Assembly (NCBI GenBank): GCA_937928545.1
Contig: CALGJQ010000007.1
Coordinates: forward strand, 186,001-250,000
DNA: 64,000 bases
Reading direction: 5' to 3'
Origin: an uncultured Verrucomicrobiales bacterium
GTDB taxonomy: Bacteria > Verrucomicrobiota > Verrucomicrobiia > Verrucomicrobiales > Akkermansiaceae
The notes under the pieces were generated by a model, which was given only the letters and a program-made list of their open reading frames with translations, did no database searches and had not been told where the DNA came from. Below, in pieces: positions 15,981-40,488 of this stretch (the stretch's first letter is position 1; every line of letters begins with the position of its first letter). Both the position numbers and the translations under genes were made by a program.

Positions 15981-16742
15981 ATGGCAAACTTTTTTCCCCG
16001 TTGGACAAACTTATTGCCGCTAAAAGTAGCGGTTTGTCTAGGTGCACTTGGTGCTGGCGTAGTTGCTGGCATCACTTACTACGGAACACCTAAGGCGCAG
16101 CGAGTGGGTTACCAACCAACTCAGCCCATTCATTTCGATCATAGTATCCATGTGGGTCAGAATGGAATGGATTGTCGTTACTGCCATAGCTTTGTTGAGC
16201 ACTCTGGGCACGCCAACGTCCCAACCGCCAATACCTGTTGGAATTGTCACGAGCACGTGAAGAAGGGATCTCCGAAGTTGGCAGGACTTCGCTCAGCGAT
16301 GGCGGTCGATGACAATCACGTTCCTCTTGAGGATGGGGCCGGAAATTTTCTTGAAGGCGAGCCTATCGAGTGGGTTCGCGTCCATAAGGCTCCCGATTAC
16401 GTCTACTTCAACCACTCCGCTCACTTAAATCGGGGTATTTCTTGTATCAGCTGTCACGGGGACGTTCAGAACATGGAAAAAGTTTACCACGCCGAGAGCC
16501 ACTCCATGGGATGGTGTCTCGACTGTCACCGCGCCCCTGAGAAGCACCTCCGCCCCTTGGAGGAAGTTTACAATTTGGACTACGATCCAACCGAGTATTT
16601 GAAAGAGAATACGGTCATCGATACCGAAGGCCTCATTGTTGGCAAAGGCGAGCAGATCAAGGAGCCTGAGCAGTTTGGCAAATTCCTTCGCGCCCATTGG
16701 GGTGTTCAACCCAAAGAGTCCTGTGCGACTTGTCACCGTTAA
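15981..16742 (+). CDS. actA: Alternative Complex III subunit A, pentaheme cytochrome c
   Basis: A 253-residue membrane-anchored cytochrome: one N-terminal helix (~13-33), then five CxxCH haem sites (CRYCH, CWNCH, CISCH, CLDCH and CATCH at the very C-terminus). Five haems and this size match ActA, which passes electrons from the ActB iron-sulfur chain to mono-haem cytochromes or directly to the oxidase. It opens the 17-kb respiratory operon, and actB begins 15 bases after its stop. Haems and membrane anchor place the soluble part in the periplasm. Confidence 0.94.
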   Translation: MANFFPRWTNLLPLKVAVCLGALGAGVVAGITYYGTPKAQRVGYQPTQPIHFDHSIHVGQNGMDCRYCHSFVEHSGHANVPTANTCWNCHEHVKKGSPKLAGLRSAMAVDDNHVPLEDGAGNFLEGEPIEWVRVHKAPDYVYFNHSAHLNRGISCISCHGDVQNMEKVYHAESHSMGWCLDCHRAPEKHLRPLEEVYNLDYDPTEYLKENTVIDTEGLIVGKGEQIKEPEQFGKFLRAHWGVQPKESCATCHR

Positions 16743-16757
16743 TTTTACCTGTCTGAG

Positions 16758-19700
16758 ATGAGCAAACGCGTCTGGAATCCACCTGTCACTCCAACTGGAG
16801 AAGAAACCACCACTGCTTGGCGTAGTGTGGGAGAAAAAGAAGGCTCCACCAGCTTTCGCAATGTTCTCGAGCGCGAGTTCCCGCAAGGGGACACGCTGAC
16901 TGAAGAAGAACAAGGCGTCTCTCGCCGTAATTTCACCAAGCTCATGGGAGCTTCGACCGCTCTTGCTGGACTCGGCTTGGCTTCGTGCCGTCGCCCCGAA
17001 AGCTACATCGTCCCTTATAAGAAGGCTCCTGAGTGGATCATTCCAGGTAAGCCTCTTTTCTATGCGAGCACGCGTCCTGTCGCAGGTGGTGCTGTGCCTC
17101 TTGTGGTCACGACTTATGAAGGTCGCCCCACGAAGTTGGAGCCAAATCCTGATCATCCTGATTCCGCCGGAACTTGTGCGCAGACTCAGGCTTCGGTTCT
17201 CGATCTCTATTCTCCTGCCCGTTCTCAAAAAATTCTCAAAGATGGCAAGGTTGCGACTCAGAGTGAATTAAAAGAAGCGCTAGCCGCTCTTGATCTCTCC
17301 AAAACCGCTCTTGTGTTCGGCGAAGACGATTCGCCCACTCGCAATCGCTTGGCGAAAGGTCTCGCGGGCAAAGGCGCGACTTTGATTTCTTACGAAGCCG
17401 TTTCCGGTGAGCCTCTTCAAAAGGGCGTCTCGCAGGTTGTCGATTTCTCTAAAGCCACCCGTATCCTTTCCTTTGATTGCGATTTCCTCTCGACTGACCC
17501 CGTTGGTAATAGCCGCGAGTATTCGAAGAAGCGTCAAGGCGGCAATGCCGAGTATGACCAGAAGGATGATGTCGATGCGGACAAAATGAACCGCCTTTAT
17601 CAGGTCGAGACGCAATTTAGCCTGACAGGCGGGCTTGCTGATCACCGTTTGCGCGTCGCTCCAAGCCGGGTTGCGCTTGTCGCCGCAGCCATCGCTCAGG
17701 CCTTCGGAATTGGTAAGGTCGAGGTCTCAGCTGAGGATAAAGAAGCATTTTTCCCTGGTGCTGATGACGCCGCTAAAACTTTCAATGAGTGGATTGAGGC
17801 CTGCAAGGCAGATCTCCAAGAAGCCGGCGCCAATGCTCTCGTTCTCGCTGGCTCTCGCCAGACGAAAGAGGTCAAGCAGTTCGCCGCCGCCATCAATGCC
17901 AAGCTAGGTTCCAAGGCCGTCAAGGCCGTGAAAACTGATCTTGCTCAATACGGATCGCTCGCTGATCTCACTGTCAAGCTCGAAAGCGCTGCGGTTAAGA
18001 ATGTCATCTTGATGACGCCATCGAACCCGGTTTTCGATGCCGATGGTTTCGCAGCTGCGCTTGATAAAGCCGAAGTTTCCATTCACTGGGGACTCCGTAA
18101 CGATGCCAGTTCATGGGCTTGCAATTGGCACGTGCCCGCCGCTCATTATCTCGAAAGCTGGGGTGATACCCGCAGCGAGACTGGTGTTCTTTCTCTCATT
18201 CAGCCTCTCATTCTTCCGCTTTACGGTGGCATTACTGAAATCGATTTTCTCCACGTCCTCGGCGGTGGTAACTTTGCCAAAGGGGAGTTCTTCCCCGCGA
18301 TGGGCGAGGTCAAAACGACCTTCGCCGAAATCACCGGCAAGTCTGACGATGAGTCATGGCGTGTCGCTCTGATGGAAGGCTTTGTTGCCGAGACCTCATA
18401 CGCCGCCGGTCAGCTCACTGCTGGTGCGCCAAGCTTTACGGCAAGTGCAGCGCCGAGCACCGACAATCTCGAAGTCGTTTTCGCCACCGACGCCTCCATT
18501 CTCGATGGCCGCTTCATCGACAACGCTTGGCTTCAGGAATCTCCTGATCCCATCACAAAGTTGACTTGGGATAACGCCGCACAAATTTCTCCGCAGACCG
18601 CCAAGGATCTTGGGATTTACGAGCGCGTCGTTTCGCTTGAGCCAAATACTCCTCTGATGAAGATCGGTGGAAAGGTGAAAGTTTCCAAACGCTACGAGAC
18701 CGGAGAAGGTGAGGGGAATCATTCTCCCATGATCCTTCTTAAGGTCAATGGACGTGAGCTTAAAGTTCCAGTCCTCATTGCCTATGGTCACGCCGATAAT
18801 GCCATCACGCTGCCAGTCGGTTACGGTCAGGCGGCCGATGATGATCGTCCCGGTTCCGTGGCCTTCGATAAGAAGGCCCCTACAGTTGGACACGTTGGCA
18901 AAAACACCGGTTTCAATGCCTACCATCTCCGCACTTTGGAGACTCCGTATTTCGCAACTGGCGCAACGGTTGAGACGACCAAAGAAGATTATCCCGTCGC
19001 GCTCACGCAAGAGCATAACTCAATGTATGGTCGTGCAATTGCTCGCGAGATTTCGACTGGCACCTTGGAAGGAAAGGGGAGTTTCGCGGAGCAGAAGAAG
19101 AAGGTCAAAAAGCAGGGCATGGATTCCCACGCCCCTCCCAACATTTCTCTTTATAAGCCGGAGGGCAGTGACACTTGGTCGAAAGGCCCAGAGGACAAAG
19201 AGGGCAAGAAGCTCGCTGCTAAGACTCACCTCGCTGACGAAATCCACCAGTGGGGCATGGCGATCGACCTCAACACCTGCACCGGTTGTAATGCTTGCCT
19301 CGTAGCCTGTCAGGCTGAGAACAACATTCCCGTAGTCGGAAAAGACCAGGTCGCAATGGGTCGTGAGATGCACTGGATCCGGATGGATCGCTACTTTGCT
19401 TCGCAGGAGTATAAATATAAGGACGGGCACAAGGCCAAAGACGAGTCCGGCAACAAGATCGAGAACCCAGCTTGGGTCACGCAAAACCCTGAGTCCATTC
19501 CTCAGCCTGTCGCTTGCGTTCAGTGCGAAATGGCTCCATGCGAAACCGTTTGCCCAGTCAACGCGACCGTTCATACCGAGGAAGGCCTCAACTCAATGGC
19601 CTACAACCGCTGTATCGGAACTCGTTACTGCGCCAACAACTGCCCCTACAAAGCACGTCGTTTCAACTTCTTCGACTACAACAAGCGCAACCCGCTCATT

Positions 19701-20234
19701 AAAGGAAACCTCTACAAAGGACCTTTCGGCGAGAAAGCGGTGGGCGAAGCACCTTCACTCCAGCGCAACCCGAACGTCACGGTTCGCATGCGTGGAGTCA
19801 TGGAAAAATGCACCTACTGCGTGCAGCGTCTTGAGTCCGCGAAGATCAAGCAGAAGCAGCAAGTTAAGGTCAACACCTACGCTTCAGGGAAGAAGTCTTA
19901 CGAAGTCAAGGTTGACCGCATCGCTGACCTCCGCGTTAAGAAAGATAGCGTGAAAACAGCCTGTCAGGATGCCTGCCCAACGAGCGCGATTTCCTTCGGT
20001 AACCTCCTCGAGAATGACTCGAAGGTGGTTCGTGCGAAAGGCAATGTCCTCGATTCCGTCAAAATCATCAAAGGAGATGACTACGAAGAAGTGCCGGGCA
20101 GCCCGCGCAACTACGATCTCCTTCAGTATATCAATACCCGTCCGCGCACGAGCTACCTCGCTCGTGTGAAGAATCCGAATCCTGACATGCCTGATTCCAA
20201 GTATCTCGGACAGGCCACCATCAACATTCACTAA
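16758..20234 (+). CDS. actB: Alternative Complex III subunit B, molybdopterin-oxidoreductase-like iron-sulfur protein
   Basis: An 1158-residue protein fusing a molybdopterin-oxidoreductase-like region (~60-750) to a ferredoxin-type region (~820-1100). The latter has four Cys clusters beginning CTGCNACLVAC, CVQCEMAPC, CIGTRYCANNC and CTYCVQRL, fitting the three [4Fe-4S] and one [3Fe-4S] centres known for ActB. A twin-arginine-like leader (SRRNFTKLMG near residue 56) precedes a hydrophobic stretch ending LASC, so export by Tat with lipid anchoring is possible. In ACIII the ActB molybdopterin-like domain is known to lack the cofactor. It moves quinol electrons to ActA. Confidence 0.95.
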   Translation: MSKRVWNPPVTPTGEETTTAWRSVGEKEGSTSFRNVLEREFPQGDTLTEEEQGVSRRNFTKLMGASTALAGLGLASCRRPESYIVPYKKAPEWIIPGKPLFYASTRPVAGGAVPLVVTTYEGRPTKLEPNPDHPDSAGTCAQTQASVLDLYSPARSQKILKDGKVATQSELKEALAALDLSKTALVFGEDDSPTRNRLAKGLAGKGATLISYEAVSGEPLQKGVSQVVDFSKATRILSFDCDFLSTDPVGNSREYSKKRQGGNAEYDQKDDVDADKMNRLYQVETQFSLTGGLADHRLRVAPSRVALVAAAIAQAFGIGKVEVSAEDKEAFFPGADDAAKTFNEWIEACKADLQEAGANALVLAGSRQTKEVKQFAAAINAKLGSKAVKAVKTDLAQYGSLADLTVKLESAAVKNVILMTPSNPVFDADGFAAALDKAEVSIHWGLRNDASSWACNWHVPAAHYLESWGDTRSETGVLSLIQPLILPLYGGITEIDFLHVLGGGNFAKGEFFPAMGEVKTTFAEITGKSDDESWRVALMEGFVAETSYAAGQLTAGAPSFTASAAPSTDNLEVVFATDASILDGRFIDNAWLQESPDPITKLTWDNAAQISPQTAKDLGIYERVVSLEPNTPLMKIGGKVKVSKRYETGEGEGNHSPMILLKVNGRELKVPVLIAYGHADNAITLPVGYGQAADDDRPGSVAFDKKAPTVGHVGKNTGFNAYHLRTLETPYFATGATVETTKEDYPVALTQEHNSMYGRAIAREISTGTLEGKGSFAEQKKKVKKQGMDSHAPPNISLYKPEGSDTWSKGPEDKEGKKLAAKTHLADEIHQWGMAIDLNTCTGCNACLVACQAENNIPVVGKDQVAMGREMHWIRMDRYFASQEYKYKDGHKAKDESGNKIENPAWVTQNPESIPQPVACVQCEMAPCETVCPVNATVHTEEGLNSMAYNRCIGTRYCANNCPYKARRFNFFDYNKRNPLIKGNLYKGPFGEKAVGEAPSLQRNPNVTVRMRGVMEKCTYCVQRLESAKIKQKQQVKVNTYASGKKSYEVKVDRIADLRVKKDSVKTACQDACPTSAISFGNLLENDSKVVRAKGNVLDSVKIIKGDDYEEVPGSPRNYDLLQYINTRPRTSYLARVKNPNPDMPDSKYLGQATINIH

Positions 20235-20255: not shown

Positions 20256-21788
20256 ATGTCCGAAGCGACCACACAGTCTGAGAACACCTCTTCAAAGGTG
20301 AAAATTCCCGTGCTTCAGCGCGAGGAGTTGATTCTCAACAACCGTTCCTACCACTGGATCACCGAGCGTATTTGCGGGGTGGTTGAAGGGCGTCAGCCTT
20401 TCCTCTGGTGGATTCTTTTCATTCCCTCCGCGATCATCGCCCTCGTGGGTGTGGTCGGTGGTTTGACTTACCTCGTTTCGACCGGCGTCGGAGTTTGGGG
20501 AAACACCAACCGCGTCATGTGGGGGTGGCCCATCGTGAACTTCGTTTTCTGGATTGGTATTGGCCACGCTGGAACGCTGATTTCTGCGATTCTCTTTCTC
20601 ACCCGTCAGAACTGGCGGACCTCGATTAACCGAGCGGCCGAAGCGATGACGATTTTCGCCGTGATGTGCGCGGGTATCTTCCCAGCCTTCCACGTCGGAC
20701 GTGTTTGGATGGCGTGGTTCCTCGCTCCGATCCCTAACTCGAACGCGATTTGGCAGAACTTCAAGTCGCCACTCCTTTGGGACGTTTTCGCGGTTTCGAC
20801 TTACTTCACTGTTTCTCTCATCTTCTGGTTCCTCGGCATGGTTCCTGACCTCGCGACGATCCGTGATCGCTGCAAGCCTGGCATCCGGAAGTTCATGTAT
20901 GGCATTTTCTCCCTCGGCTGGCGCGGTGGTAACCGTCAGTGGAGCCACTATGAGATGGCTTACCTCCTTCTCGCCGCGCTCTCAACTCCGCTCGTGCTCT
21001 CCGTGCACTCGGTCGTTTCCTTTGACTTCGCCACCTCGGTGGTTCCCGGATGGCACACCACTATCTTCCCGCCATACTTCGTGGCCGGCGCCATTTTCGG
21101 TGGTTTCGCCATGGTTCTCACCATCATGATTCCCGCGCGGGCCCTCTACGGTCTGCACGATATGATCACGATGAAGCACATCGATAACATGGCCAAGATC
21201 ATCCTCCTGACCGGAACGATCGTGGGATATGCTTACTTGATGGAGCTCTTTATCGCATTCTACTCTGGTGCGAGATACGAGGGCGCGGCCTTCCTCCTTC
21301 GGATCGATGGACCCTACTGGTGGGCCTACTACTGCATGATGGGTTGCAACGTCCTCTCTCCGCAGGTCTTCTGGTTTAAGAAGTGCCGCGAAAACCTCTG
21401 GGTCGTGATGGCGATCGCGATGTGTGTGAACATCGGAATGTGGTTCGAGCGCTTCGTAATCATTGTCACCACCTTGGCCCGGATGTGGCTCCCAGGTGAT
21501 TGGAAAACTTACAGCCCGAGTGGGGTTGATGTTTTGACCTTCGTCGGAACGATCGGAATGTTCCTCGCCCTCTTCCTCCTCTTCCTCCGCTTCCTTCCCT
21601 GCATCAACATTGCTGAGGTGAAGTGGACCCTCAAGGAGAGCGACGCTCACGATGAGGACAAGAAAGCCCATCCTGATGACGGCATCGAGTTGATCGAGGC
21701 CTACCAATACGAAATTCACGAAAATCCTGAAGGAGCGGCGAAGGAAGCTGGTCTTGAGGAAGCAACCCCAACGACGGAAAAGGCATGA
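20256..21788 (+). CDS. actC: Alternative Complex III subunit C, NrfD/PsrC-type quinol-binding membrane subunit
   Basis: A 510-residue polytopic protein of the NrfD/PsrC family with about ten membrane helices. Characteristic stretches are [21 protein letters not shown] and the His-containing [14 protein letters not shown]. ActC oxidises menaquinol or ubiquinol and provides a proton pathway in ACIII. The C-terminal ~50 residues are soluble and acidic. Its last codons overlap the start of actD by 4 bases, indicating translational coupling. Confidence 0.95.
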
Positions 21789-22342
21789 GCACGAAAGTCC
21801 GCAGAGTTTACGGCTACTTAGCCGAGTTTAAAAATGCTTCGCAGCTCTACAAGGCTGCTGAGAAGGTCCGCGATGCTGGATTCAAGAAGTGGGATTGTTA
21901 CTCACCTTATCCCATCCACGGTCTTGATGATGCCATGGGGATCAAGCGCTCCATTCTTCCTTACTTCGTCTTCATTGGCGGATTGACCGGTTTTTTGACC
22001 GCGATCACTCTGGCTTACACCACGCAGGTGGGGCTCTACCCGACCGTCGTGCAAGGCAAGCCTGCCAACATCTTCACCACCGCGGCTTTCTTCCCGGTGA
22101 TGTTTGAGCTTACGATTCTCTTCTCCGGCTTCACCGTTCTTTTTGGTCTGCTGGCGCTGATGGGACTGCCTCGTTGGAACCACCCGATTTTTGCGAGTAA
22201 GCAATTTTCCCGCGTGACGGACGATAAGTTCTTCATCGCGATCGAGGCTCGCGACGCCAAGTTTTCGGCCGAAGCCACCAAATCACTCCTCGATGAAATC
22301 GGCGGAGACAACATCGAACTTGTGGAGGACGACTCTGAGTAA
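21785..22342 (+). CDS. actD: Alternative Complex III subunit D (DUF3341)
   Basis: A 185-residue protein with the DUF3341 layout: a soluble N-terminal ferredoxin-like part ([19 protein letters not shown], then [19 protein letters not shown]) followed by two membrane helices (~58-80 and ~100-125) and a short soluble tail. In ACIII, ActD is a peripheral/membrane subunit bridging other membrane subunits. It overlaps actC by 4 bases and is followed by actE after only 3. Confidence 0.93.
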
Positions 22343-22345
22343 ACC

Positions 22346-22972
22346 ATGAAATATTTTTTCCTCACACTCATTGCCCTTGCCATCCTTGTGGTGGGTCTCT
22401 TCGGTTTCCGTGGCGATAAGTTCTCGTCCGCTCCCATCGAGGTTTTCCCCGACATGGATCATCAGGATAAGGTGAAAGCGCAAACCGCGAGCACCTTCTT
22501 TGCGGATGGAATGGGTTCCCGTCGTCCCGTTCTCGGCACTGTTCCTAAAAATGCTGATAGCGGCGTCATGCCTCTCGAATTCGGAGTAGGCCGCGCTGGA
22601 TACTACTTTGACGGCAAGCTCGATGGCTCTTTCGGAAACGGAATGCCTAAAGAACTAGCTCTCAAGGAAGAGTCAGATTCCATCGGCCTCCTTGCTCGCG
22701 GCAAAGACATGTTCAATGTCCACTGCGCGATTTGCCATGGTGAATCTGGCGATGGCAAGGGTGTCGTAGCCGCCTACTTCGCCAAGGCTGACCCGATCAT
22801 CACAGTTCCTTCTCTTTTAACAGCTCTCCCCGCAACCCATCCTGATGGCCTCGTCTATGACGTGATCACAAACGGTAAGGGCAGCATGGGAGCTTATAAG
22901 CACAACATTCCCGTGCGCGACCGCTGGGCCATCGTGGCTTACCTTCGCGCTCTTCAGGCTTCTGCCAAATAA
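22346..22972 (+). CDS. actE: Alternative Complex III subunit E, mono-haem cytochrome c
   Basis: A 208-residue cytochrome with an N-terminal hydrophobic anchor (~3-20), a single CAICH haem-binding site near residue 129 and a plausible axial Met in GKGSMGAY near residue 178. These match ActE, the mono-haem carrier of ACIII. The region between anchor and haem (PDMDHQDK, VPKNADSGVMP) is typical of the family. Second cytochrome subunit of the operon. Confidence 0.93.
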   Translation: MKYFFLTLIALAILVVGLFGFRGDKFSSAPIEVFPDMDHQDKVKAQTASTFFADGMGSRRPVLGTVPKNADSGVMPLEFGVGRAGYYFDGKLDGSFGNGMPKELALKEESDSIGLLARGKDMFNVHCAICHGESGDGKGVVAAYFAKADPIITVPSLLTALPATHPDGLVYDVITNGKGSMGAYKHNIPVRDRWAIVAYLRALQASAK

Positions 22973-22999: not shown

Positions 23000-24361
23000 A
23001 TGGCACATCAAGTGACATCAAAAGACATCCCGACCAAGGGAGAGCATCTGGAGAAAAGCAAAGTTGCGAAACTCCAGTTTCTTGCCGGCATCATTGGTGG
23101 GGGTGGTCTCATTCTCAGCATCATCTACCTCTGGTTTTTCGGCGGTGTTGAAAATCCCGAAACTCCAGAGCATGAGTCTTCAAAGGCACACGGTTCTTAC
23201 GCATTTTCTTGGCTCTTCGCCGTTTTCTTCGTTTTGACCATCGCGCTCGGCGGTTGCTTCTGGACCTTCCTTCATAACCTTTCCAACTCAGGGTGGGGGA
23301 CTTCAGTTCGCCGGATGATGGAAAATCTCGGCTTCGTCTTTCCTTTCCTCTTCATCTTCTGCATTCCCTTCCTTTTCCCACAGGTGCAACAGTATCTTTG
23401 GGAGTGGATGACTTCTTACAACGCAGCAGTGGATGCGCACCCTGAGATGAGTGACAAGGAAGCCTTGTTCCACAGCAGCAATACTCACGACCACCTTCTC
23501 GCCGCAAAGGTCTTTTACCTCCATCCCGGATTCTGGCTTGCTCGATTCTTTACTTACTTCATCGGCCTTGGATTCTTCATCTGGCTCGTTCGTAAGTTCT
23601 CAATCGCACAGGACACCGATAACAATCCTGGCACCAAGAACCTCTTCGCCGCCCGTAAGCACTCGTCCTGGAGCATGATCGTCTTCGGTGTCACTCTGAC
23701 TTTCCTCGCTCTCGACCTCGTGATGGCTCTCGATTTCTCATGGTTCTCCACCATGTTCGGAGTTTATATCTTCGCAGGATCGGCCCTCAACTCGATGGCC
23801 GTCCTCATCCTCACCGGGATTTTCCTCCAGCGTGCGGGTTACCTGAAGAATGTTGTCACGCAAGAGCACTACCACATCATGGGTAAGCTCTGCTTCGCCT
23901 TCACCGTTTTCTGGGCCTACGTTTCTTTCTCTCAATTCTTCCTCATCTGGTATGCCAATATCACGGAGGAGACTCGTTACTTCCTCCTTCGGAACACCGA
24001 GAACTGGAACCTTGTCAGTCTCTCTCTCGTCTTCATGCACTTCGCGCTTCCATTCCTCGCGCTCCTTCGTTCGGACGTGAAGAAGAATCAGAAGTTCATG
24101 ATCGGACTCTGCTGCTACATTCTCTTCATGCACGCGGTCGATGTCTACCACATGATCATTCCTGAGCGTGGACCTTCGGTAGGCCTTGTCGTCGACCATG
24201 CCCCAAAACTCTGGCTCGGTGGATCATGGGTGGGCGATATCATTGCTCTCGTCATCGCCGTTTCTGGTTTCCTCTTCTTCTATCTCCGCAACCTCACCTC
24301 GGCTGCACTTTATCCTCACCGCGATCCTCGAATCCTCGAGTCCGCTAACCTTCATAACTAA
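23000..24361 (+). CDS. actF: Alternative Complex III subunit F, NrfD-like membrane subunit
   Basis: A 453-residue polytopic membrane protein of about ten helices, with the ActF-type pattern: a TM near 30-48, the FLHNLSNSGWGTSVRRMMENLG loop, LSQ-like FSQFFLIWYANITEETRYF and the late HAVDVYHMIIPE. ActF is the second, quinol-poor NrfD-like subunit of ACIII and is thought to carry a proton path. It completes the canonical actABCDEF set. Confidence 0.92.
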   Translation: MAHQVTSKDIPTKGEHLEKSKVAKLQFLAGIIGGGGLILSIIYLWFFGGVENPETPEHESSKAHGSYAFSWLFAVFFVLTIALGGCFWTFLHNLSNSGWGTSVRRMMENLGFVFPFLFIFCIPFLFPQVQQYLWEWMTSYNAAVDAHPEMSDKEALFHSSNTHDHLLAAKVFYLHPGFWLARFFTYFIGLGFFIWLVRKFSIAQDTDNNPGTKNLFAARKHSSWSMIVFGVTLTFLALDLVMALDFSWFSTMFGVYIFAGSALNSMAVLILTGIFLQRAGYLKNVVTQEHYHIMGKLCFAFTVFWAYVSFSQFFLIWYANITEETRYFLLRNTENWNLVSLSLVFMHFALPFLALLRSDVKKNQKFMIGLCCYILFMHAVDVYHMIIPERGPSVGLVVDHAPKLWLGGSWVGDIIALVIAVSGFLFFYLRNLTSAALYPHRDPRILESANLHN

Positions 24362-24366
24362 ACGTC

Positions 24367-24687
24367 ATGGATCACACTCGCGACAATCCGCTTAAGCGAT
24401 TCACCGCCTTCTGGGTGGCTCTTCTTCTCGTGACTGCCTTCGGCATCGCCTGCATCATTCTTCGTCCCATGACTCATGCGAAGGTTGATTCCGCGATGGA
24501 AGCTGCCGCCGATGATCGCCGGGCCGTTCGTGCCGAGGTCGATAACGCCCAGCGCAAAAATTTAAACCAAAGCGCTCTCGACGAGGCTTTCAAGGCAAAG
24601 GCTGTTTCGCTTCTTAAATCCGAACCCAAACCTGGTAAGGTTGCGGTGCCCAAGCCCGCAGCAGAACCTGAACCCGCTTCCGAGTAA
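24367..24687 (+). CDS. small single-helix membrane protein in the respiratory operon
   Basis: A 106-residue protein with a short cytoplasmic start, one membrane helix (~13-33) and an Ala/Lys/Glu-rich tail that probably forms a helix, ending in a Pro-rich stretch. No Cys, no haem site, no family recognised. It begins 5 bases after actF, so it is translated with the complex. Its position at the joint between the ACIII genes and the oxidase-like module suggests an accessory or bridging subunit; this is inferred. Confidence 0.65.
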   Translation: MDHTRDNPLKRFTAFWVALLLVTAFGIACIILRPMTHAKVDSAMEAAADDRRAVRAEVDNAQRKNLNQSALDEAFKAKAVSLLKSEPKPGKVAVPKPAAEPEPASE

Positions 24688-24720
24688 GCTTCAACGAGGC
24701 TTTTTTAACTGACTTTTCTC

Positions 24721-26208
24721 ATGGCTGAGACCACTTCCAATGCTGAATCCAACGACGTCGCTTTGCGTGCTTCGATTGATCGCTCGCTTCGTCACCCGGT
24801 GATGTTTTTCTTCACGAGTGGAGCCGTTTGGCTTGCTCTCGCAATCGTCCTCGGACTGGTTGCCTCTGCGAAGAAGCACTCTCCGGAATTCCTGAGCTGC
24901 TTTTCTTGGCTTGATGCCGGAAAAGTCGATGGCGCTCACATGAGTGCGCTCATTTACGGCTGGGGAGCCCAAGCGGCCTTCGGAATCATCATCTGGCTCA
25001 TGGCCCGCCTTTCTCGGAAGGAGTGCACCAATGCTGGCACTATCTTGACGGTCGGACATCTTTGGAACCTCTTCGTCTTCATCGGCCTCATTTGCATCTT
25101 GAGCGGAAATGGCTCGGGAATCGCCTACATGGAATTTCCCGGATTCATCTGGCCACTTTTGATCGTCTGCTACTTGGCGATCACGATCTGGTCACTCGTT
25201 CAGTTCCAAGTTCGTGATGCCGGACACGTTTATGTCAGCCAATGGTATCTCCTCGCGGGTCTCCTTTGGTTCCCATGGATTGCCGTGACCGCTTTCCTCT
25301 TCGTTTTTGTCTTCGATGGACACCCCGTGATGGCCACCGCGATCGCGTCATGGTTTAAAGGATCACTTTTCCTCCTCTTCTTCCTCCCGACTGCCCTCGC
25401 AAGTGCTTACTACCTCGCGCCGAAAGTCACCGGTCGTCCGGTTTACAGCTACAATCTCGCCCTCTTTGGCTTCTGGGCTCTGGCCTTCCTCGGACCTTGG
25501 GCCGGTATGCAGAAGCTCGTCGGCGCTCCCATCCCACAATTCCTTCCTTACATGGGCGCAGCTGCGATGGTCTTGATCTTAATCCCCGCGATCTCGGTGG
25601 GCTTAAACATCCTCAAGACGGTTCACGGTCACGGTGACATTGTTGCCGAGAGTCCTTCGCTTCGTTTCACCAGCAGTGGAATTGTCCTCTTCGTGGCATA
25701 CGGCGTTCTTTCCTTCGTTCTGCACACCGTGCCGGCGATGAAGATGACTCAGTTCAGCTACTCAGGCTACGGTCTCGATATTCTTGGCTTTTACGGAGTC
25801 TTCTCGCTTTGTGCTTTCGGTGCGATTTACTTCATCGTTCCCCGAATCACGCGCCGGGAGTGGCTTTCACGTCGCTTCATTTCTTGGCACTACTTCCTCT
25901 CGCTCTACGGAGTGGCATCCATCGTGATTTGCGCCGTCGTTGGTGGGGTGACTCAGGGACAGGGGATCGAAGACGTCGCACAACCCTTCGCTACGATGGC
26001 CGAGCGCGCCAGTCAGTATGGTTGGGGAGTGACGATCGCTTGGGCCTTCCTCCTCTTTGCGAACCTCTTCTTCTGCCTTCACCTCCTTCTCATGTGGGCT
26101 CGCCTCGGACGTCGTTCTTCGCACCCAACTTTGTTGAAAGGGCATCACACTGAAAATCCACACGGCCCAGAAGGGGAAATCGACAACATCGGATCCGCTT
26201 CTGCTTAA
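24721..26208 (+). CDS. CcoN-like haem-copper-oxidase homologue lacking active-site ligands
   Basis: A 495-residue, ~12-helix protein aligning with cbb3 oxidase subunit I (CcoN): GRPVYSYNLALFGFWAL, YYLAPK and FGAIYFIVPR are recognisable. The histidine for one low-spin haem face survives (H73 in GAHMSALIYGWG). By alignment the rest are gone. The GHN copper ligand falls on K213-G-S, the HH pair on Q264-K265 of WAGMQKL, and the HVH haem ligands on D353-I in GLDILG. It therefore cannot form a haem-b3/CuB centre. It may scaffold the c-type cytochromes that follow. The alignment is by eye; the absence of an internal HH is certain. Confidence 0.8.
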   Translation: MAETTSNAESNDVALRASIDRSLRHPVMFFFTSGAVWLALAIVLGLVASAKKHSPEFLSCFSWLDAGKVDGAHMSALIYGWGAQAAFGIIIWLMARLSRKECTNAGTILTVGHLWNLFVFIGLICILSGNGSGIAYMEFPGFIWPLLIVCYLAITIWSLVQFQVRDAGHVYVSQWYLLAGLLWFPWIAVTAFLFVFVFDGHPVMATAIASWFKGSLFLLFFLPTALASAYYLAPKVTGRPVYSYNLALFGFWALAFLGPWAGMQKLVGAPIPQFLPYMGAAAMVLILIPAISVGLNILKTVHGHGDIVAESPSLRFTSSGIVLFVAYGVLSFVLHTVPAMKMTQFSYSGYGLDILGFYGVFSLCAFGAIYFIVPRITRREWLSRRFISWHYFLSLYGVASIVICAVVGGVTQGQGIEDVAQPFATMAERASQYGWGVTIAWAFLLFANLFFCLHLLLMWARLGRRSSHPTLLKGHHTENPHGPEGEIDNIGSASA

Positions 26209-26228: not shown

Positions 26229-26963
26229 ATGACTTTTAAAGCATTTATCTTCGGCTTACTCGCCAGCTTCGGCTTCCCATGGCTCGTGGCGGTAGTGATT
26301 CCGTTTTCTAAGATGCGCGCTCTTGAGCCCGTGAAATATGAGGAGGGTGATGCTGCGACAGGCGTTTTCATTCCCAAGCGCGATGGACGTGTTACCGAAG
26401 GTTCTAAAGTCTACGGACAAGAGGGCTGCTACCAATGCCACACTCAGTTGATTCGCCCGACCTATGCGGGTAACGATGTCTTCCGCGGTGAATGGGCTGG
26501 TCTTCGTAAAACGCTCGATAACCCTGACACGCGTCGCGAGACTTTGGCGATGGATTACCAGGATGAGAAAGTGGCTCACATTGGTCAAAGCCGAGTTGGT
26601 CCTGACTTGTCGAACCTTGGACGTCGTCTCGAGCAGAGTTTGAAGGGCACTGGGGTTTCCCCTGAAGATTGGGTTCTTCAGCACCTTTACAATCCACGTG
26701 GAGTGAAAAACTACCGTATCGGCACGCAGGATCTTCCCGAGCGCTCGACTTGTCCGTCTAAAGCAGGTCTTTTCAAGATCGTTGATTCTTACGGTGCTGG
26801 TGGGGGACTTCTCCCCGTAGAGATCGAAGATGGAAAAGGCGTTCAAGCAAGCGACCGTGCTCGTCAGTTGGCCAGCTATTTGACTTCACTCAAGAAAGAC
26901 ACTCTCGGACAACCCTTGCCCGAATCTCTCAACACTAATCCTCAGGCTCCTGTAGAAGAATAA
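26229..26963 (+). CDS. CcoO-like mono-haem cytochrome c
   Basis: A 244-residue protein with one N-terminal membrane helix and the CcoO signature GCYQCHTQLIRP (C67, C70, H71), followed by SRVGPDLSNLGRR and HLYNPR. In cbb3 oxidases CcoO passes electrons into CcoN. The usual axial-methionine motif SxMP reads S-T-C175-P here, so the sixth haem ligand may be cysteine or may come from elsewhere. The gene follows the CcoN-like gene by 20 bases and precedes another cytochrome by 4. Confidence 0.85.
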   Translation: MTFKAFIFGLLASFGFPWLVAVVIPFSKMRALEPVKYEEGDAATGVFIPKRDGRVTEGSKVYGQEGCYQCHTQLIRPTYAGNDVFRGEWAGLRKTLDNPDTRRETLAMDYQDEKVAHIGQSRVGPDLSNLGRRLEQSLKGTGVSPEDWVLQHLYNPRGVKNYRIGTQDLPERSTCPSKAGLFKIVDSYGAGGGLLPVEIEDGKGVQASDRARQLASYLTSLKKDTLGQPLPESLNTNPQAPVEE

Positions 26964-26967
26964 GTTC

Positions 26968-27738
26968 ATGTCTGCTTCTCAATCCAACCGCGATATGCGA
27001 CCCGATCTCGATGAGACCATCAATGTCTCAGAGGCTCATGGCGCAATCAAAGATGCCCCTCCAGCTGTCGGACGCGAAAAGTCGCTCCGTGAAAATGGCA
27101 TGGAGTCCGTTTCCCTTTTGCTCATTTTGGTCTCCGGAATCGTCGTCCTCGTTGCTGGTTCAGTGATGGGGCAGGGTGGTTCCTTTTTCGGATACGGGGA
27201 AACCGTGAAAGACGGCTATATGCGTGGAAAGTCACCCGTTAAGGAGGAGGTTCCTTTGCCTCCGATTAGCGTGCTCGCTCTCCTTCAAAAGGAAGGCCAG
27301 AAGCAGTATGCCGCTTGTGCCTCTTGTCACCAGACCAGTGGAATGGGTGGGGGTGAATTTCCTCCACTTGCCGGCTCAGAATGGGTGACTGGGAATACCG
27401 AAAAACTCGCCATGATCATCCACAACGGAGTGGGCGGTCCCATTGAAGTTGCTGGAAACCCTTACAATGGAAATATGGCGGCAATTGGAGCCAACTTTGG
27501 TCCTAAAGAACTCGCTTCTGTGATGACTTACATTCGGACCTCTTGGGGGAACAATGCGAGCCTCGTAACACCGCAAATGGCCGAGGAAGCTCTTAAAATC
27601 TCTAAGGCTCGCGGAGGTGCTCCAACGACCGCAGAAGAATTGAAGAAAAATCACGACAAAATGCTTCCCGGTGACACTTTGGATCCGGACACCCTTCTAG
27701 ATCCAGAAACTTGGGAGCCAATCCCAGCTGCCGAATAA
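26968..27738 (+). CDS. membrane-anchored mono-haem cytochrome c (CcoP-like position)
   Basis: A 256-residue cytochrome. After ~45 polar residues comes a single membrane helix (~46-68), then a cytochrome c domain with CASCH near residue 115 and a likely axial Met in NGNMAAIG near 171, and a charged tail. It sits where ccoP would be but has one haem rather than the two of typical CcoP. It probably carries electrons from ACIII toward CuA of the aa3 oxidase. Confidence 0.85.
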   Translation: MSASQSNRDMRPDLDETINVSEAHGAIKDAPPAVGREKSLRENGMESVSLLLILVSGIVVLVAGSVMGQGGSFFGYGETVKDGYMRGKSPVKEEVPLPPISVLALLQKEGQKQYAACASCHQTSGMGGGEFPPLAGSEWVTGNTEKLAMIIHNGVGGPIEVAGNPYNGNMAAIGANFGPKELASVMTYIRTSWGNNASLVTPQMAEEALKISKARGGAPTTAEELKKNHDKMLPGDTLDPDTLLDPETWEPIPAAE

Positions 27739-27765: not shown

Positions 27766-29655
27766 ATGAGTGCGGACTCCCACGATCATCACGACGATCA
27801 CCATCACGAGCTTCCTTTCTGGAAGAAGTATCTCTTTTCAACCGATCATAAGACGATTGGAATTCAGTATGGCCTCGCTGCGGGTGCCTTCCTGCTTTTC
27901 GGTTTCTTCCTGATGATCGTGATGCGCTGGAGCATTGCCTATCCTCATGAGCCGCTTCCTGGTTATCTGAGCTGGATCTTCACTGATGGCTGGAAAGGCC
28001 GTTGGTTAGATGACGGAAAAGTCACTGGTGATACCTACAACATGTTCGGTGCGATGCACGGGACGATCATGGTTTTCCTCGGAGTGGTTCCTCTTGGCTT
28101 TGCGGCCTTTGGTAACTACGTCACTCCACTCCAGATTGGTGCTCCCGATATGGCTTTCCCGAAGCTCAACATGGCGAGTTTCTGGGTTTATCTCGCAGGT
28201 GGAATCGTGATGTGCATGAGTTTCTTCATGGAATCTGGTGCTGCCAAATCTGGTTGGACCAACTACTCGCCGCTGGCGGGCTACGCGGATCGACAAATTG
28301 TGAATCAGCTGCTGGCGGGACAAACGCAGTGGCTGATCGGTCTGGTCTTGCTCATTACCTCGTCACTTCTTGGCTCGGTGAATTTCATTACGACCATCAT
28401 TCAGCTCCGTGCAAAGGGGCTGACTTGGATGCGCCTCCCATTCTTTGTCTGGGCGATGCTCGTCACGGGTTTCCTTCTTCTCCTTGCTTTCCCACCGCTT
28501 GAAGCCGCTGGCATCATGCAGCTCATGGACCGCATGGTTGGATCGAGTTTCTTCATGCCAACTGGACTTTACTCAGCGGCCGATGATGTGGCCCTTGATA
28601 TTTCCGGTTCCGGAAGCCCGCTTCTCTTCCAGCACCTCTTCTGGTTCCTTGGTCACCCTGAGGTTTATGTTCTTCTTCTTCCCGCGATTGCCTGTGTTGC
28701 CGAGATTATTCCTTGTAACACCCGTAAGCCACTTTGGGGATACAAGCCGATGGTTTGGGGAGTTATCGTTCTCGGTTTCCTTTCCTTCATCGTTTGGGCT
28801 CACCACATGTATCTCACCGGAATGGGGCCAGTCATTTCGACCTTCTTCCAAACCACCACCGTGCTGATTTCGGTGCCCTCGGTGATTTTGCTCACCTCCT
28901 TGATCATTTCGCTCTGGGGTGGTTCGATCCGCTTCACGATGCCCATGATCTGGGCTGCGGCCTTCCTGCCAATGTTCGGAATTGGTGGTCTCACTGGTCT
29001 CCCTCTCGCCTTCAACCTTGCCGACCTTCACCTTCACGATACCTACTACGTGATCGGTCACTTCCACTATGTGGTGGCGCCCGGAATCCTCTTTGGCCTC
29101 TTCGCTGGAGTCTATCATTGGTATCCTAAGATGACGGGTCGATTCATGGACAACTTCCTCGGTCACTTGCACTTCTGGCCCTCCTTGGTCTGCATGAACC
29201 TTCTCTTCTTCCCGATGCTCACGCAGGGAATGGCAGGTTTCCACCGTCGTTGGTATAACGGAGGTGAGGGATACATTGAGAAAGCCTCTGATGGGGTGAA
29301 CGTCTTCGGTCAGACCGTCGCGGACAATATTTCGCTCAACGAAGTTATGACTGGAGCCGCGATCGCTCTCGCAGTCTTCCAGATTCCTTTCCTCCTCAAC
29401 ATGTTCATCAGTTACTTCTGGGGTAAGAAAGTCACGAGTGATAACCCTTGGAATGCCACCACGCTTGAGTGGGCCACTCCAACGCCTCCGGGACACGGAA
29501 ACTTCACCTTCGATATCGCCGTTTATCGCGGACCTTACGAATATAGCCGTCCTGACCATGACAAGGACTACTTCCCACAGTGGGAAGAGCCCAAACGTTC
29601 TAATCCAGTCGAGGAGCCCTCGGAGAAACCCGAAAAGGAATCCACCGAAGCCTAG
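27766..29655 (+). CDS. coxA: cytochrome c oxidase subunit I, aa3 type
   Basis: A 629-residue subunit with 12 or more membrane helices. All active-site motifs are present: LGHPEVY (CuB His, the A1-family Glu, and the Tyr that cross-links to it), WAHHMY (two CuB His) and VIGHFHYVV (haem a3 and haem a ligands). The N-terminus is His/Asp-rich. This is the catalytic subunit that reduces oxygen and pumps protons, and the only one in this operon with a complete binuclear centre. It is followed by coxC after 32 bases. Confidence 0.97.
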   Translation: MSADSHDHHDDHHHELPFWKKYLFSTDHKTIGIQYGLAAGAFLLFGFFLMIVMRWSIAYPHEPLPGYLSWIFTDGWKGRWLDDGKVTGDTYNMFGAMHGTIMVFLGVVPLGFAAFGNYVTPLQIGAPDMAFPKLNMASFWVYLAGGIVMCMSFFMESGAAKSGWTNYSPLAGYADRQIVNQLLAGQTQWLIGLVLLITSSLLGSVNFITTIIQLRAKGLTWMRLPFFVWAMLVTGFLLLLAFPPLEAAGIMQLMDRMVGSSFFMPTGLYSAADDVALDISGSGSPLLFQHLFWFLGHPEVYVLLLPAIACVAEIIPCNTRKPLWGYKPMVWGVIVLGFLSFIVWAHHMYLTGMGPVISTFFQTTTVLISVPSVILLTSLIISLWGGSIRFTMPMIWAAAFLPMFGIGGLTGLPLAFNLADLHLHDTYYVIGHFHYVVAPGILFGLFAGVYHWYPKMTGRFMDNFLGHLHFWPSLVCMNLLFFPMLTQGMAGFHRRWYNGGEGYIEKASDGVNVFGQTVADNISLNEVMTGAAIALAVFQIPFLLNMFISYFWGKKVTSDNPWNATTLEWATPTPPGHGNFTFDIAVYRGPYEYSRPDHDKDYFPQWEEPKRSNPVEEPSEKPEKESTEA

Positions 29656-29687: not shown

Positions 29688-31448
29688 ATGGAAATTCCAT
29701 TTATCGTCAACGCCCGTAAAGATACCGGACTCTTCAACTCGAAGGTCGGCATCTGGCTCTTTCTTGCCTCGGAGGTGACTCTCTTCGGAGGTCTCTTCTC
29801 GGGATATCTTTTCCTTCGCCTCTATGCCGATTACCCATGGCCGGAGCGTGCCCTTCCAGTTCTACCCGGATTGATTAACACCTTTATCCTCATCGGTTCG
29901 TCCGTAACAGTGGTTTTCGCTTGGGCAGCCTTGAAGATGCGGGAGTGGAAGAAGTTCCAAATCTACATGTGGATCACCCTGATCTGCGCGCTTCTCTTTT
30001 TGGGTCTCAAGGCAGTCGAGTATAACGCCAAGTTCCACCACCAAGGGGTTCGTTTATCGAGTGAAGGATCGGTTCAGGACTTCGGATATCTTGAAGGACA
30101 CGTTCACTACGGAAAGTTGGACGAGAACGGAAAGCTCATTGAGGTTTCTAAGCAAGAGAAGAAGGACAACCCCGAGGGAGTTTTCTCAGCTAACAAAATC
30201 ATCTTCAAGGCGAGCGAGCTGACCTTCGCGCTCAAGCGCCCTGCGCATGAGGCTTATGTGAAAGAAATTCTCAAGCAGGCAGGGGACGATCATAAGATTA
30301 CGCTCGTAGGAGATTATCGAGTTCCTGATGAAGATGAGCTTCATGCTGCTGGTAAGAACCGGGCTCAACTTGAGGCGAGTGAGGCTGCTCTTGTGGTTGC
30401 CGATGGGGCAGATCTTTCCATTGATGATCTCGATGATCTTGAAGACGCCTTCCTCGACGCGCGTGCTCACGATAAGAATATCCGGACCGAGTTCCTTCGC
30501 GCTTCATGGTCCTGGATCCGTGATGAGAAGGGGATCGATGAAATTTCGAACCTCGTGATCACGACCGATCTTTGGAAAGAGCGGATGGCTGAGGATAATG
30601 CCAAGATTAAAGATCTCATGATTAGTGCTCCCGGCACGGTCAAATACAAGATCGATCCACCACTCACCTTGGTTTGGGAGCCCGATGATATTCCCAAGCT
30701 CGCCGATACTGAGATTAAGCTCCGCGATGATACCGTCATCAAAGGAGAGCTTCAGCCAAGCCCAATGCTTTTGGGAGTTGATGCCATCGACTTCCGTCAC
30801 ACCGCGATGCGTGCCGAAACTGAGGGGATCGAGCCGATGGACGCGATCAAACAGAGCTGGATTCTGACTCATGAAAACAGCAAGGGTGAGAACGACCTTA
30901 AGAAGGCTTGGGACTGTCATCAGGCCTGGCTCGCACAATTGACAAAAGATCTCGACGAAAAGAATGAAGAGAAAGGTCTCGAGGGTGAAGATCGCTTGGT
31001 TCCCACTGATAACGATAAATACCGAGTGAACTGGGATCAGATGGTCGCCTATAAGAAGCTCGATTTCGACGTAGAAGCGGTCGCTGCGGCTGCTGCGGAT
31101 GGAAGTCTTAAGCGCAGTGGTCTTTTTGATCTCAGTGGTTTCGCAGGAGCGAATCACAATAATTACGAATTCCCACACGTTGAGATTCCTCGTGAGAATG
31201 TTGGTTTTACTTCAACCTTCACTCCGAAGTGGAACACTTACTATGCGATCTACTTCACGATCACAGGTCTTCACGGACTTCACGTGATCGGAGGAGCCAT
31301 CGTTCTTGGATACTACCTCTTTTTCGGACGTAAGATGTATGACTCGAACCCAGAGTGGCTCGCTAACCGGGTCGAAGTTGGAGGCCTCTTCTGGCACTTC
31401 GTTGACCTTGTTTGGATCTTCCTCTTCCCGATCCTCTACTTGATGTAA
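29688..31448 (+). CDS. coxC: cytochrome c oxidase subunit III with ~380-residue insertion
   Basis: A 586-residue protein, more than twice the usual ~200-270. Residues 1-120 are ordinary CoxC (NSKVGIWLFLASEVTLFGGLFSGY and three further helices ending in the LKAVEY motif). Residues ~504-586 are its normal end (ITGLHGLHVIGG, FWHFVDLVWIFLFPILYL). Between them (bases ~30048-31196) lies a soluble, charged, helix-rich insertion with no Cys pair, haem site or family I recognise. The frame is unbroken and codon use matches the flanks, so it is not an assembly error. The loop should face one side of the membrane. Confidence 0.88.
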   Translation: MEIPFIVNARKDTGLFNSKVGIWLFLASEVTLFGGLFSGYLFLRLYADYPWPERALPVLPGLINTFILIGSSVTVVFAWAALKMREWKKFQIYMWITLICALLFLGLKAVEYNAKFHHQGVRLSSEGSVQDFGYLEGHVHYGKLDENGKLIEVSKQEKKDNPEGVFSANKIIFKASELTFALKRPAHEAYVKEILKQAGDDHKITLVGDYRVPDEDELHAAGKNRAQLEASEAALVVADGADLSIDDLDDLEDAFLDARAHDKNIRTEFLRASWSWIRDEKGIDEISNLVITTDLWKERMAEDNAKIKDLMISAPGTVKYKIDPPLTLVWEPDDIPKLADTEIKLRDDTVIKGELQPSPMLLGVDAIDFRHTAMRAETEGIEPMDAIKQSWILTHENSKGENDLKKAWDCHQAWLAQLTKDLDEKNEEKGLEGEDRLVPTDNDKYRVNWDQMVAYKKLDFDVEAVAAAAADGSLKRSGLFDLSGFAGANHNNYEFPHVEIPRENVGFTSTFTPKWNTYYAIYFTITGLHGLHVIGGAIVLGYYLFFGRKMYDSNPEWLANRVEVGGLFWHFVDLVWIFLFPILYLM

Positions 31449-31486: not shown

Positions 31487-31876
31487 ATGGCTGACTCAGT
31501 TGAAGAAATCAAAAAAGCGAAAAAGCTTTATCTCATCATTTTCGGTGCCCTCCTTGTGGGGACCGCTCTCACGGTTGCTGTTGCGACCTTTCCCGCGCTT
31601 GATGTCGGTGGGCATGGTTTTGACGGTAAGGATGCGGTCTTGGGACTCATCATCGCGAGCGTGAAGGCCTCTCTCGTGATGCTCATCTTCATGCACTTGA
31701 ATCATGAGAAGCCTCTCATTTATTTCTTCTATGGACTGGGAATTGTGATGGCATTTTTCTGTATGTGGCTGATTGGTTGGTCAAAGAGCGACCCCATTCA
31801 GTATGGAAACTCGGAAAAGGCAGATGGCTTCTATAATCCAGAGAAGCCTACCACCAACGTTCACGGCCACGATTAA
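31487..31876 (+). CDS. coxD: cytochrome c oxidase subunit IV, prokaryotic type
   Basis: A 129-residue protein with three membrane helices (~14-35, ~50-70, ~77-98). The pattern LIFMHLNHEKPLIYFFYGLG in the middle is typical of the small CoxD/COX4_pro subunit, a structural part of bacterial aa3 oxidases. The soluble C-terminus is short and His-containing. It lies between coxC and two tiny membrane-protein genes. Confidence 0.88.
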   Translation: MADSVEEIKKAKKLYLIIFGALLVGTALTVAVATFPALDVGGHGFDGKDAVLGLIIASVKASLVMLIFMHLNHEKPLIYFFYGLGIVMAFFCMWLIGWSKSDPIQYGNSEKADGFYNPEKPTTNVHGHD

Positions 31877-32364: not shown

Positions 32365-33174
32365 ATGTTTACCGCACTCAACTGGTCAAAATGGCTCGGC
32401 ATTCCCGAGAACTACGCCGATCACGGGGGCAATGTTGATCACCTGATCGACATCGTCCACTGGTTCATGTTTGCCCTTTTTGTGGGCTGGACTCTTTTCT
32501 TTCTCTTTTGTCTTTGGAAGTTTCGCGCTTCTAACAATCCCAAAGCGAGCTACCACGGTGTGACCAACCACGTTTCCAGTCACATGGAGATCGGGGTGGT
32601 GATCATTGAGGCCGTTCTTCTTCTTGGTTTTGCCTTTCCGCTTTGGTGGGAGCGCACGGATCAATGGGAGGAAGTTCAAAAGACTGACCCCGTTCGGGTT
32701 CGGGTGATCGCTTATCAATTTGGTTTCAAATACCACTATCCAGGAGAAGACGGGAAGTTCGCTCGGATTGACCGCACCTTGGTCGCAACTACCGGTGACC
32801 CTTGCATCGACCCAGATGATCCCAATGGATACGACGACTTCGTCACGACGGTTTTGAAAATCCCAGTTGATCGTAATGCCATTCTTCAGGTGACCTCGAC
32901 GGACGTGATTCACAACTATTCGATCATCCCGATGCGCATCCAGCAGGATGCGATCCCTGGTCGTGATATTCCAATGTGGTTCAAGCCGATTCAGAAGCTT
33001 GAGACGAGCGTGGTCTGTGGCCAGCTTTGCGGTGAGAACCACGCCAACATGGCAGGGCTCATGGAAGTGGTCAGTCAAAATGCCTATAAGGGCTGGGCTG
33101 CGGAGCAGAGTAAAGCCGCCCTTGAAAAGACCCTTGATGCTCAAAAGGCAGCCAAGGCTCTCGCTAAAAAGTAA
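32365..33174 (+). CDS. coxB: cytochrome c oxidase subunit II with CuA site
   Basis: A 269-residue subunit: two membrane helices (~30-52 and ~75-95) and a cupredoxin domain. The CuA ligands are complete: His183, Cys218-GQL-Cys222, His226 and Met229 (CGQLCGENHANM). The aromatic patch that usually reads QWxW is QFGF here (residues 118-121). There is no fused cytochrome c domain, so this is aa3 rather than caa3. Unusually, coxB is last in the operon. A perfect terminator follows. Confidence 0.95.
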   Translation: MFTALNWSKWLGIPENYADHGGNVDHLIDIVHWFMFALFVGWTLFFLFCLWKFRASNNPKASYHGVTNHVSSHMEIGVVIIEAVLLLGFAFPLWWERTDQWEEVQKTDPVRVRVIAYQFGFKYHYPGEDGKFARIDRTLVATTGDPCIDPDDPNGYDDFVTTVLKIPVDRNAILQVTSTDVIHNYSIIPMRIQQDAIPGRDIPMWFKPIQKLETSVVCGQLCGENHANMAGLMEVVSQNAYKGWAAEQSKAALEKTLDAQKAAKALAKK

Positions 33175-33193: not shown

Positions 33194-33224
33194 AACGACC
33201 GGAGGAAACTCCGGTCGTTTTTTT
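33194..33224 (+). terminator. intrinsic terminator of the respiratory operon
   Basis: A perfect 11-base stem, AACGACCGGAG / CTCCGGTCGTT, closed by a GAAA tetraloop and followed by seven T, 19 bases after coxB. It marks the end of the act-cox transcription unit. Confidence 0.92.
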
Positions 33225-40350: not shown

Positions 40351-40383
40351 ATATCTCTGTTTTTGTGAATACCCGCAACGCTG

Positions 40384-40399
40384 AGCAACAGCTGTGCCA
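40384..40399 (-). promoter_or_regulatory. sigma-54 (-24/-12) promoter of the first amt
   Basis: On the minus strand the sequence is TGGCACAGCTGTTGCT, matching the sigma-54 consensus TGGCAC-N5-TTGCW at every specified base. Transcription would begin about 12 bases further, near 40373, leaving a ~22-base leader before the ATG. Confidence 0.88.
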
Positions 40400-40423
40400 T
40401 GGTTGAATGAATGGGATTCATGT

Positions 40424-40440
40424 TTGGCATGAAAGATGCT
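40424..40440 (+). promoter_or_regulatory. sigma-54 (-24/-12) promoter of the second amt
   Basis: TTGGCATGAAAGATGCT keeps GG and GC exactly ten bases apart, as RpoN requires, with one base off in each box. Transcription would begin near 40451, which argues for the amt start at 40489 rather than at the earlier in-frame ATG at 40411. Confidence 0.78.
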
Positions 40441-40488
40441 TCCGTGAAGGTGAGCGGTCGATTTGAACCGCGCATACGCAAACTAGTT

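Follow-up and report, generated by a model that had tools for sequence, protein, structure and literature searches.

A CcoN homologue lacking the oxygen-reduction centre in an Alternative Complex III operon of Verrucomicrobiales, with a possible role as a non-catalytic core

The window, namely the whole 64,000-nucleotide stretch of an uncultured Verrucomicrobiales bacterium that was analysed here, carries genes for Alternative Complex III (ACIII), for relatives of the cbb3 oxidase subunits CcoN, CcoO and CcoP (marked below with a prime), and for an aa3 oxidase. These are arranged in the order ActA, ActB, ActC, ActD, ActE, ActF, small protein, CcoN′, CcoO′, CcoP′, CoxA, CoxC, CoxD and CoxB (Table 1). 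In addition to the family match over its cut-off, ActB (16758..20234) has QrcC- and DsrO-like matches under theirs. In six of the seven loci with gene lists, a comparable small ORF separates ActF from CcoN′; none is listed in L160. The gaps from ActF through CoxD measure 5, 33, 20, 4, 27, 32 and 38 nt, CoxB follows CoxD after 488 nt, and a weaker hairpin is found directly upstream of CcoN′ (24686-24702). The gene spacing, together with the hairpin after CoxB, is compatible with a single transcript.

Table 1. Genes and features of the act-cco-cox region in the window.
Feature	Position	Strand	Basis or remark
ActA, multihaem cytochrome c of ACIII	15981..16742	+	Cytochrome_C7
ActB, fused MoCo-like and Fe-S protein	16758..20234	+	TIGR04519 over cut-off
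ActC, NrfD family	20256..21788	+	
ActD	21785..22342	+	PF11821, E 5e-60
ActE, cytochrome c	22346..22972	+	
ActF, second membrane subunit	23000..24361	+	named by position; no Pfam/NCBIfam match
Small protein before CcoN′	24367..24687	+	one membrane helix by eye; no Pfam match
CcoN′	24721..26208	+	C-family haem-copper subunit I homologue without b3/CuB centre
CcoO′, CcoO/FixO-like mono-haem cytochrome c	26229..26963	+	FixO, E 4e-8; one CxxCH
CcoP′, CcoP-like cytochrome c	26968..27738	+	one CxxCH; TIGR00782 below cut-off
CoxA, A-family oxidase subunit I	27766..29655	+	PF00115, 431 bits
CoxC with long insert	29688..31448	+	
CoxD	31487..31876	+	TIGR02229, 38.1 bits (cut-off 37.25)
CoxB	32365..33174	+	TIGR02866, 113 bits, below cut-off of 147.7
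Terminator-like strong hairpin after CoxB	33194..33219	+	consensus match only

Other features of the region were recorded in passing. CoxC (29688-31448) comprises 586 aa, of which the NCBIfam subunit III models cover only about residues 19-127 and 509-586; since these models match both ends only, about 370 residues are inserted. CoxC proteins measure 459-631 aa in the Verrucomicrobiales loci listed and 217-290 aa in L133, L164, L166 and L167. Downstream of the cox genes, a DsbH-like protein is encoded at 33363-34361 (55 bits, below the family cut-off), with a relative likewise present in L005, and two divergent genes, identified by eye as ammonium-transporter-like, with products of 470 and 465 aa, occupy 38938-41808.

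The ORF at 24721-26208 encodes 495 aa without internal stops and is an intact homologue of CcoN, subunit I of cbb3 oxidase, that lacks the oxygen-reduction centre. Its product matches Pfam COX1 (E 7e-35), scores 105 bits against the NCBIfam ccoN model TIGR00780, far below the curated cut-off of 583, and aligns over residues 30-448 with solved CcoN chains in phmmer (E 3e-23 to 8e-19). The predicted structure (pLDDT 86.4, pTM 0.88) superimposes on CcoN of 3mk7 with a TM score of 0.83 at 2.3 A; thus the haem-copper oxidase fold and the CcoN homology expected of a cbb3 subunit I are both present. Of the two neighbouring cytochromes, CcoO′ scores 36.7 bits against TIGR00781 (ccoO), below cut-off, and has the single CxxCH expected of a CcoO; CcoP′ has one CxxCH, whereas canonical CcoP has two.

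Ligand positions follow the P. stutzeri numbering, as obtained by counting residues in the 3mk7 chain, and were paired with window residues by alignment to true CcoNO; the redox tyrosine column was taken as the Tyr six residues before H257, equivalent in the window to the position six before Q264. Of the seven positions that serve as ligands or in redox chemistry, six carry another residue in CcoN′. The CuB ligands H207, H257 and H258 correspond to G214, Q264 and K265, the haem b3 ligand H347 to L352, and the redox Tyr251 to G258; in the low-spin haem b pair, H60 is kept as H73, the sole survivor, whereas H349 has become I354, with no His or Met at or beside this position in residues 351-357. 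E122 and E323 are also missing, being occupied by A and L, respectively. All 61 close relatives compared share H73, though its partner ligand is gone. The same pairing was obtained from the phmmer alignment to PDB chains, and an alignment artefact was ruled out as the source of the ligand loss by the agreement of phmmer, MAFFT and the fold. A single broken gene of one metagenome-assembled genome was likewise ruled out, for example by copies 91-95% identical, all of the ligand-counted ones being in the lost state. The original prediction, made from the window sequence, had described an intact CcoN-like protein with replaced ligand sets (K-G-S, Q-K and D-I) and H73 as the lone remaining ligand; Pfam, NCBIfam (below cut-off), PDB chains and fold concur on its identity, the stop-free frame on its intactness, and alignment to CcoNO and to CcoN structures on the ligand loss.

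Relatives were collected by a peptide-pattern contig scan from one sequence, which returned 191 related stretches, 80 of which were kept; all scan-returned loci belong by name to Verrucomicrobiota, apart from one titled only Bacterium. Strains of the cultured genera Roseibacillus, Haloferula and Rubritalea are among the carriers of the ligand-free form. A match at 1e-5 was obtained in 55 of 58 near genomes, with G010 and G039 showing weak matches of the CcoNO kind only, and 100 of 387 phylum genomes matched at 1e-30, 92 of them within the class Verrucomicrobiae. Of the eight matching genomes outside the class, each of the six examined carries intact ligands, in one case in a frame of CcoNO length (L206) and in five in CcoN-like proteins, and no act genes were found beside these out-of-class rows (gene context listed for L168-L170). 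The act-linked family is defined here by the gene order ActF, CcoN′, CcoO′, CcoP′, which is the order in the window; among 62 act-family loci, ActF and CcoO′ were each detected in 61 and CcoP′ in 59, with undetected partners in L122, L126, L136 and L144, of which L122 and L126 run into contig edges.

Co-occurrence was assessed in the 93 class genomes with ActC at 1e-60, with genus g3 set apart. CcoN′ accompanies ActC in 91 of them (90 at 1e-30, and G127 by profile), the two without a clear CcoN′ being G064 and G417, the latter with a weak partial match only; conversely, CcoN′ is present in the class genomes G361 and G420 with no ActC match at cut-off. No CcoN′ match was obtained in the 14 genomes of genus g3, which have a more distant ActC. 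Among the 28 out-of-class genomes with ActC, 10 have no CcoN′ match, and in 18 the only matching frames measure 715-783 aa, as a fused CcoNO does; in 17 of the 18 genomes these are found on contigs other than that of ActC or are separated from it by at least 84 kb, and in G232 one is located on the opposite strand, about 7 kb away from ActC. Because ACIII occurs outside the class and in g3 without a CcoN′ in the act operon, CcoN′ is not a general requirement of ACIII. As judged from these genomes, CcoN′ is not a lone decayed gene, and it is kept with ACIII across the class Verrucomicrobiae.

Two ligand states were distinguished among 181 distinct rows, counted after three further rows of 388-437 aa had been dropped. 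All seven positions are intact in 37 rows and the centre is lost in 144. The intact rows consist of 27 act-linked proteins, four true CcoNO from the same phylum (L127-L130), L206 and five CcoN-like proteins. These last (L168, L169, L170, L204 and L205) form a separate clade with Gln at the E323 position, and L168-L170 are 457-461 aa long. None of the 144 lost rows retains Tyr251; of the six histidines, none is left in 23 lost rows, one in 102, two in 17 and three in 2. At the H60 equivalent, 99 lost rows still have His and 45 have another residue. Both low-spin ligands, H60 and H349, are still present in the lost rows L131, L132 and L122, suggesting that the b3/CuB site may go before the low-spin site. 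E122 is found in 27/27 intact act-linked rows and in 19/144 lost rows. E323 is absent from all 27 intact act-linked rows, which makes even the intact form unusual within the C family. Partner cytochromes with one CxxCH accompany 140 of the 144 lost rows in the case of both CcoO′ and CcoP′, no partner ORF having been found for the other four of each, and 143 lost rows have open frames that reach 440 aa or more; the remaining one, L126, is a contig-end fragment.

State changes were counted on trees without direction and are read as losses because the outgroups are intact, which would make the ligand-complete form the older one. In a CcoN′ tree of 117 rows, the lost state needs two changes, and in a tree of 48 of the 181 rows with ligand columns blanked it needs three, as compared with eight in an ActB+ActC tree of 94 loci under a simpler model, all forced by well supported branches. 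One single loss was rejected by the AU test (p 6e-5) on the 48 rows with ligand columns blanked, the lost group having been named after the first tree was seen. The conflict between the trees may reflect attraction among fast-evolving lost rows or exchange of CcoN′ between operons; either way, the centre appears to have been lost more than once, two or three times by the CcoN′ trees versus eight by the Act tree. The clearest separate loss is that of L135, whose CcoN′ is, outside the ligand columns, 61% identical to the intact L134 and 42% to the nearest lost row, and whose Act genes nest within the same intact family as those of L134. The L135 protein groups with the intact family in the 48-row tree (support 92, not flagged as strongly supported) and beside other lost rows in the 117-row tree.

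The tempo of change after loss can be followed within families. In family f7, the lost L135 and the intact L134 share 93% identity in ActC, 80% in ActB and 60% in CcoN′, the last figure comparing with 84-94% for CcoN′ of the intact L171-L173, and in both f7 and f9 the loss accompanies a bigger identity drop in CcoN′ than in CcoO′, CcoP′ or the Act proteins. By the NG86 method, CcoN′ dN/dS is 0.029-0.075 in five window pairs (the sixth being saturated), values that are rough because all window pairs have dS above 1; it is 0.061-0.254 in six other lost pairs, and 0.016-0.082 in four intact pairs, with a fifth saturated. As dN/dS is well under 1 in the lost pairs, the lost copies are constrained by purifying selection, though partly less so than the intact ones.

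The remaining oxidases of these genomes bear on what the intact form does. In the small genomes G058 and G201 (99% and 98% complete), the intact CcoN′ is the sole COX1 match and no CydA match was obtained; since these genomes show no other haem-copper oxidase or CydA match, the ligand-intact act-linked form probably works as a true oxidase. In the source genome of the window (92% complete), COX1 matches were limited to CoxA and CcoN′, and CydA gave none. A further COX1 match was found in 52 of the 53 ligand-lost genomes searched, the exception being G047 (82% complete), where the contig edge lies upstream of CcoN′ and CoxA is absent from the 8 kb that follow CcoP′. Because 25 of 27 intact genomes also have a further COX1 match, redundancy alone does not cause the loss. 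In L133 and in G370 (L175), a ligand-intact CcoN′ is accompanied by an A-type CoxA nearby, and these loci possibly represent the stage before loss of the centre.

These observations suggest the following scheme. The ancestor of CcoN′ would have been the O2-reducing subunit I of a C-family (cbb3-like) oxidase, which became the fixed genetic partner of ACIII in the class Verrucomicrobiae. In several lineages with another oxidase, usually aa3, the b3/CuB centre and the redox tyrosine would then have been lost, mostly along with the low-spin haem b site, the fold and both cytochromes c being retained. In the window, CcoN′ would accordingly serve as a non-catalytic membrane core holding CcoO′ and CcoP′ against ACIII, and electrons leaving ACIII would reach the aa3 oxidase by way of CcoO′/CcoP′. 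From the linkage, the retained partners and the evidence for selection, we infer a physical complex, this electron route and the scaffold role. The core reading is favoured because both cytochromes and the fold are retained, the genes are linked, and CcoN′ accompanies ACIII almost throughout the class; a protein that lost its oxygen-binding parts yet was kept beside a respiratory complex probably supports that complex rather than acting as an enzyme. That an ACIII-linked C-family oxidase repeatedly lost catalysis and was kept as a structural and electron-relay core is, in our judgement, fairly probable, and that subunit I is by now a permanent non-catalytic part of ACIII, in an assembly of ACIII, a CcoN′OP core and often aa3 whose centre was lost two to eight times, we regard as evenly balanced. 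The invariance of H73 without a partner ligand is not explained by plain scaffolding.

The original prediction had read the gene as a pseudo-oxidase with a new role, perhaps a scaffold joining ACIII to the aa3 oxidase, and had asked whether ligand-retaining homologues would expose it as a lone decayed gene. The absence of an oxygen centre stands, and the same loss recurs in the 144 of 181 rows described above, which is more than chance; intact relatives do exist, but the window copy, given the co-occurrence with ActC, is not alone. Because these intact relatives occupy the same operon position, the ligand-free form is better read as a derived, repeatedly lost state of a probable oxidase. Scaffolding is the best-supported role, but the aa3 part of the proposal extends less far: an A-type CoxA occurs in at least 27 of the 62 act-family loci, a lower bound because loci end at varying distances, and no cox genes follow CcoP′ in the seven loci with gene lists. 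Many ligand-free act loci lack CoxA within the stretch examined, so that direct bridging to aa3 is not general; the gene arrangement suggests it only in loci where cox genes follow.

Other explanations were weighed against this core reading. The continued selection assumed in the original prediction agrees with dN/dS well below 1 in all pairs with a value, and the same ratios, together with the open frames in 143 of 144 lost rows, the many invariant columns and the 91 of 93 class genomes sharing CcoN′ and ActC, speak against a residual gene that decays slowly and is tolerated since aa3 does the work. Such decay could account for the faster fall in identity of CcoN′ relative to the Act genes after ligand loss, and for the lost pairs that reach a dN/dS of 0.25, and to it we give the smallest chance. 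An assembly or maturation factor for CcoO′, CcoP′ or aa3, acting outside the final complex, would fit the linkage and the retained cytochromes equally well; CcoN is, however, the core subunit on which solved cbb3 enzymes are arranged with CcoO and CcoP, and this role appears very improbable.

Two further alternatives would leave CcoN′ with an activity of its own. A redox function through a single b-type haem, or another cofactor, at H73 or new ligands would explain why H73 is invariant among close relatives and why its equivalent persists in most lost rows, with both low-spin ligands still in place in three of them; the lack of His or Met around the H349 position in the window, and the replacement of H60 in 45 lost rows, which leaves no common site, make such a function unlikely. 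If CcoN′ served as a pathway for ions or quinones, through a proton path or a quinol-binding site, and so added energy conservation to ACIII, this would be in keeping with the retained haem-copper oxidase fold and with the polar residues common to the lost and intact groups (Y230, Y231, Y244, N296 and H390). Against it, the equivalents of T215 and S240, presumably K-channel residues, are invariant in the 27 intact rows but occur in 30 and 36 of the lost rows, and together in just five of the 144, which weakens the proton path put forward originally and renders this alternative quite unlikely.

PMC8498564, citing Refojo 2010, and PMC6688271 describe an ACIII-linked C-type oxidase in Opitutaceae and verrucomicrobial methanotrophs, and the latter ties the ACIII-linked cbb3 to high O2 affinity. 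PMC10205796 repeats the three oxidase types, and PMC13274419 lists three genes after ActABCDEF as a caa3. pmoA-family genes were found in G098, G110, G207 and G314, the ACIII-linked subunits of which (L203, L202, L167 and L166) lack the centre; by sequence and score, the other COX1 matches of G207 and G314 are two A-family, one B-type and one NorB-like. These pmoA-bearing genomes, which are perhaps not those of the published strains, call the published "cbb3 oxidase" assignments into question. No earlier report of the ligand loss was found in the literature searched, which covered few subscription papers.

If CcoN′ is indeed a non-catalytic part of ACIII, several published cbb3 oxidases of the class would not be oxidases. 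Annotation is affected as well: where respiratory models take the ACIII-linked gene for a high-affinity cbb3 oxidase, its ligands should be checked. The haem-copper subunit I is the textbook catalytic core, here repeatedly found without its centre and yet under selection, and the ligand-complete sisters in the same operon position offer a natural experiment on the non-catalytic function of the fold. The question bears also on how ACIII passes electrons to oxidases.

In the supercomplex of Flavobacterium johnsoniae (Sun 2018, cited in PMC8498564), ACIII and aa3 reportedly work as a unit that dispenses with a separate soluble cytochrome c. In the window, the link between ACIII and an oxidase is one of gene linkage. 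The F. johnsoniae supercomplex is not known to contain a part corresponding to CcoN′, CcoO′ or CcoP′. With CcoN of the solved cbb3 enzymes (3mk7, 8smr and 6xkw), the window protein has in common its fold, its homology and the adjacent CcoO-like and CcoP-like genes; unlike them, it lacks the b3/CuB ligands, the redox tyrosine, the low-spin pair, E122 and E323, its CcoP-like partner has a single haem motif, and its gene lies within an act operon. The system of Opitutaceae and the verrucomicrobial methanotrophs shares with the window the linkage of ACIII to a C-family subunit I, but that subunit is treated in PMC8498564 and PMC6688271 as part of a working cbb3 oxidase, whereas CcoN′ of the window is devoid of the centre.
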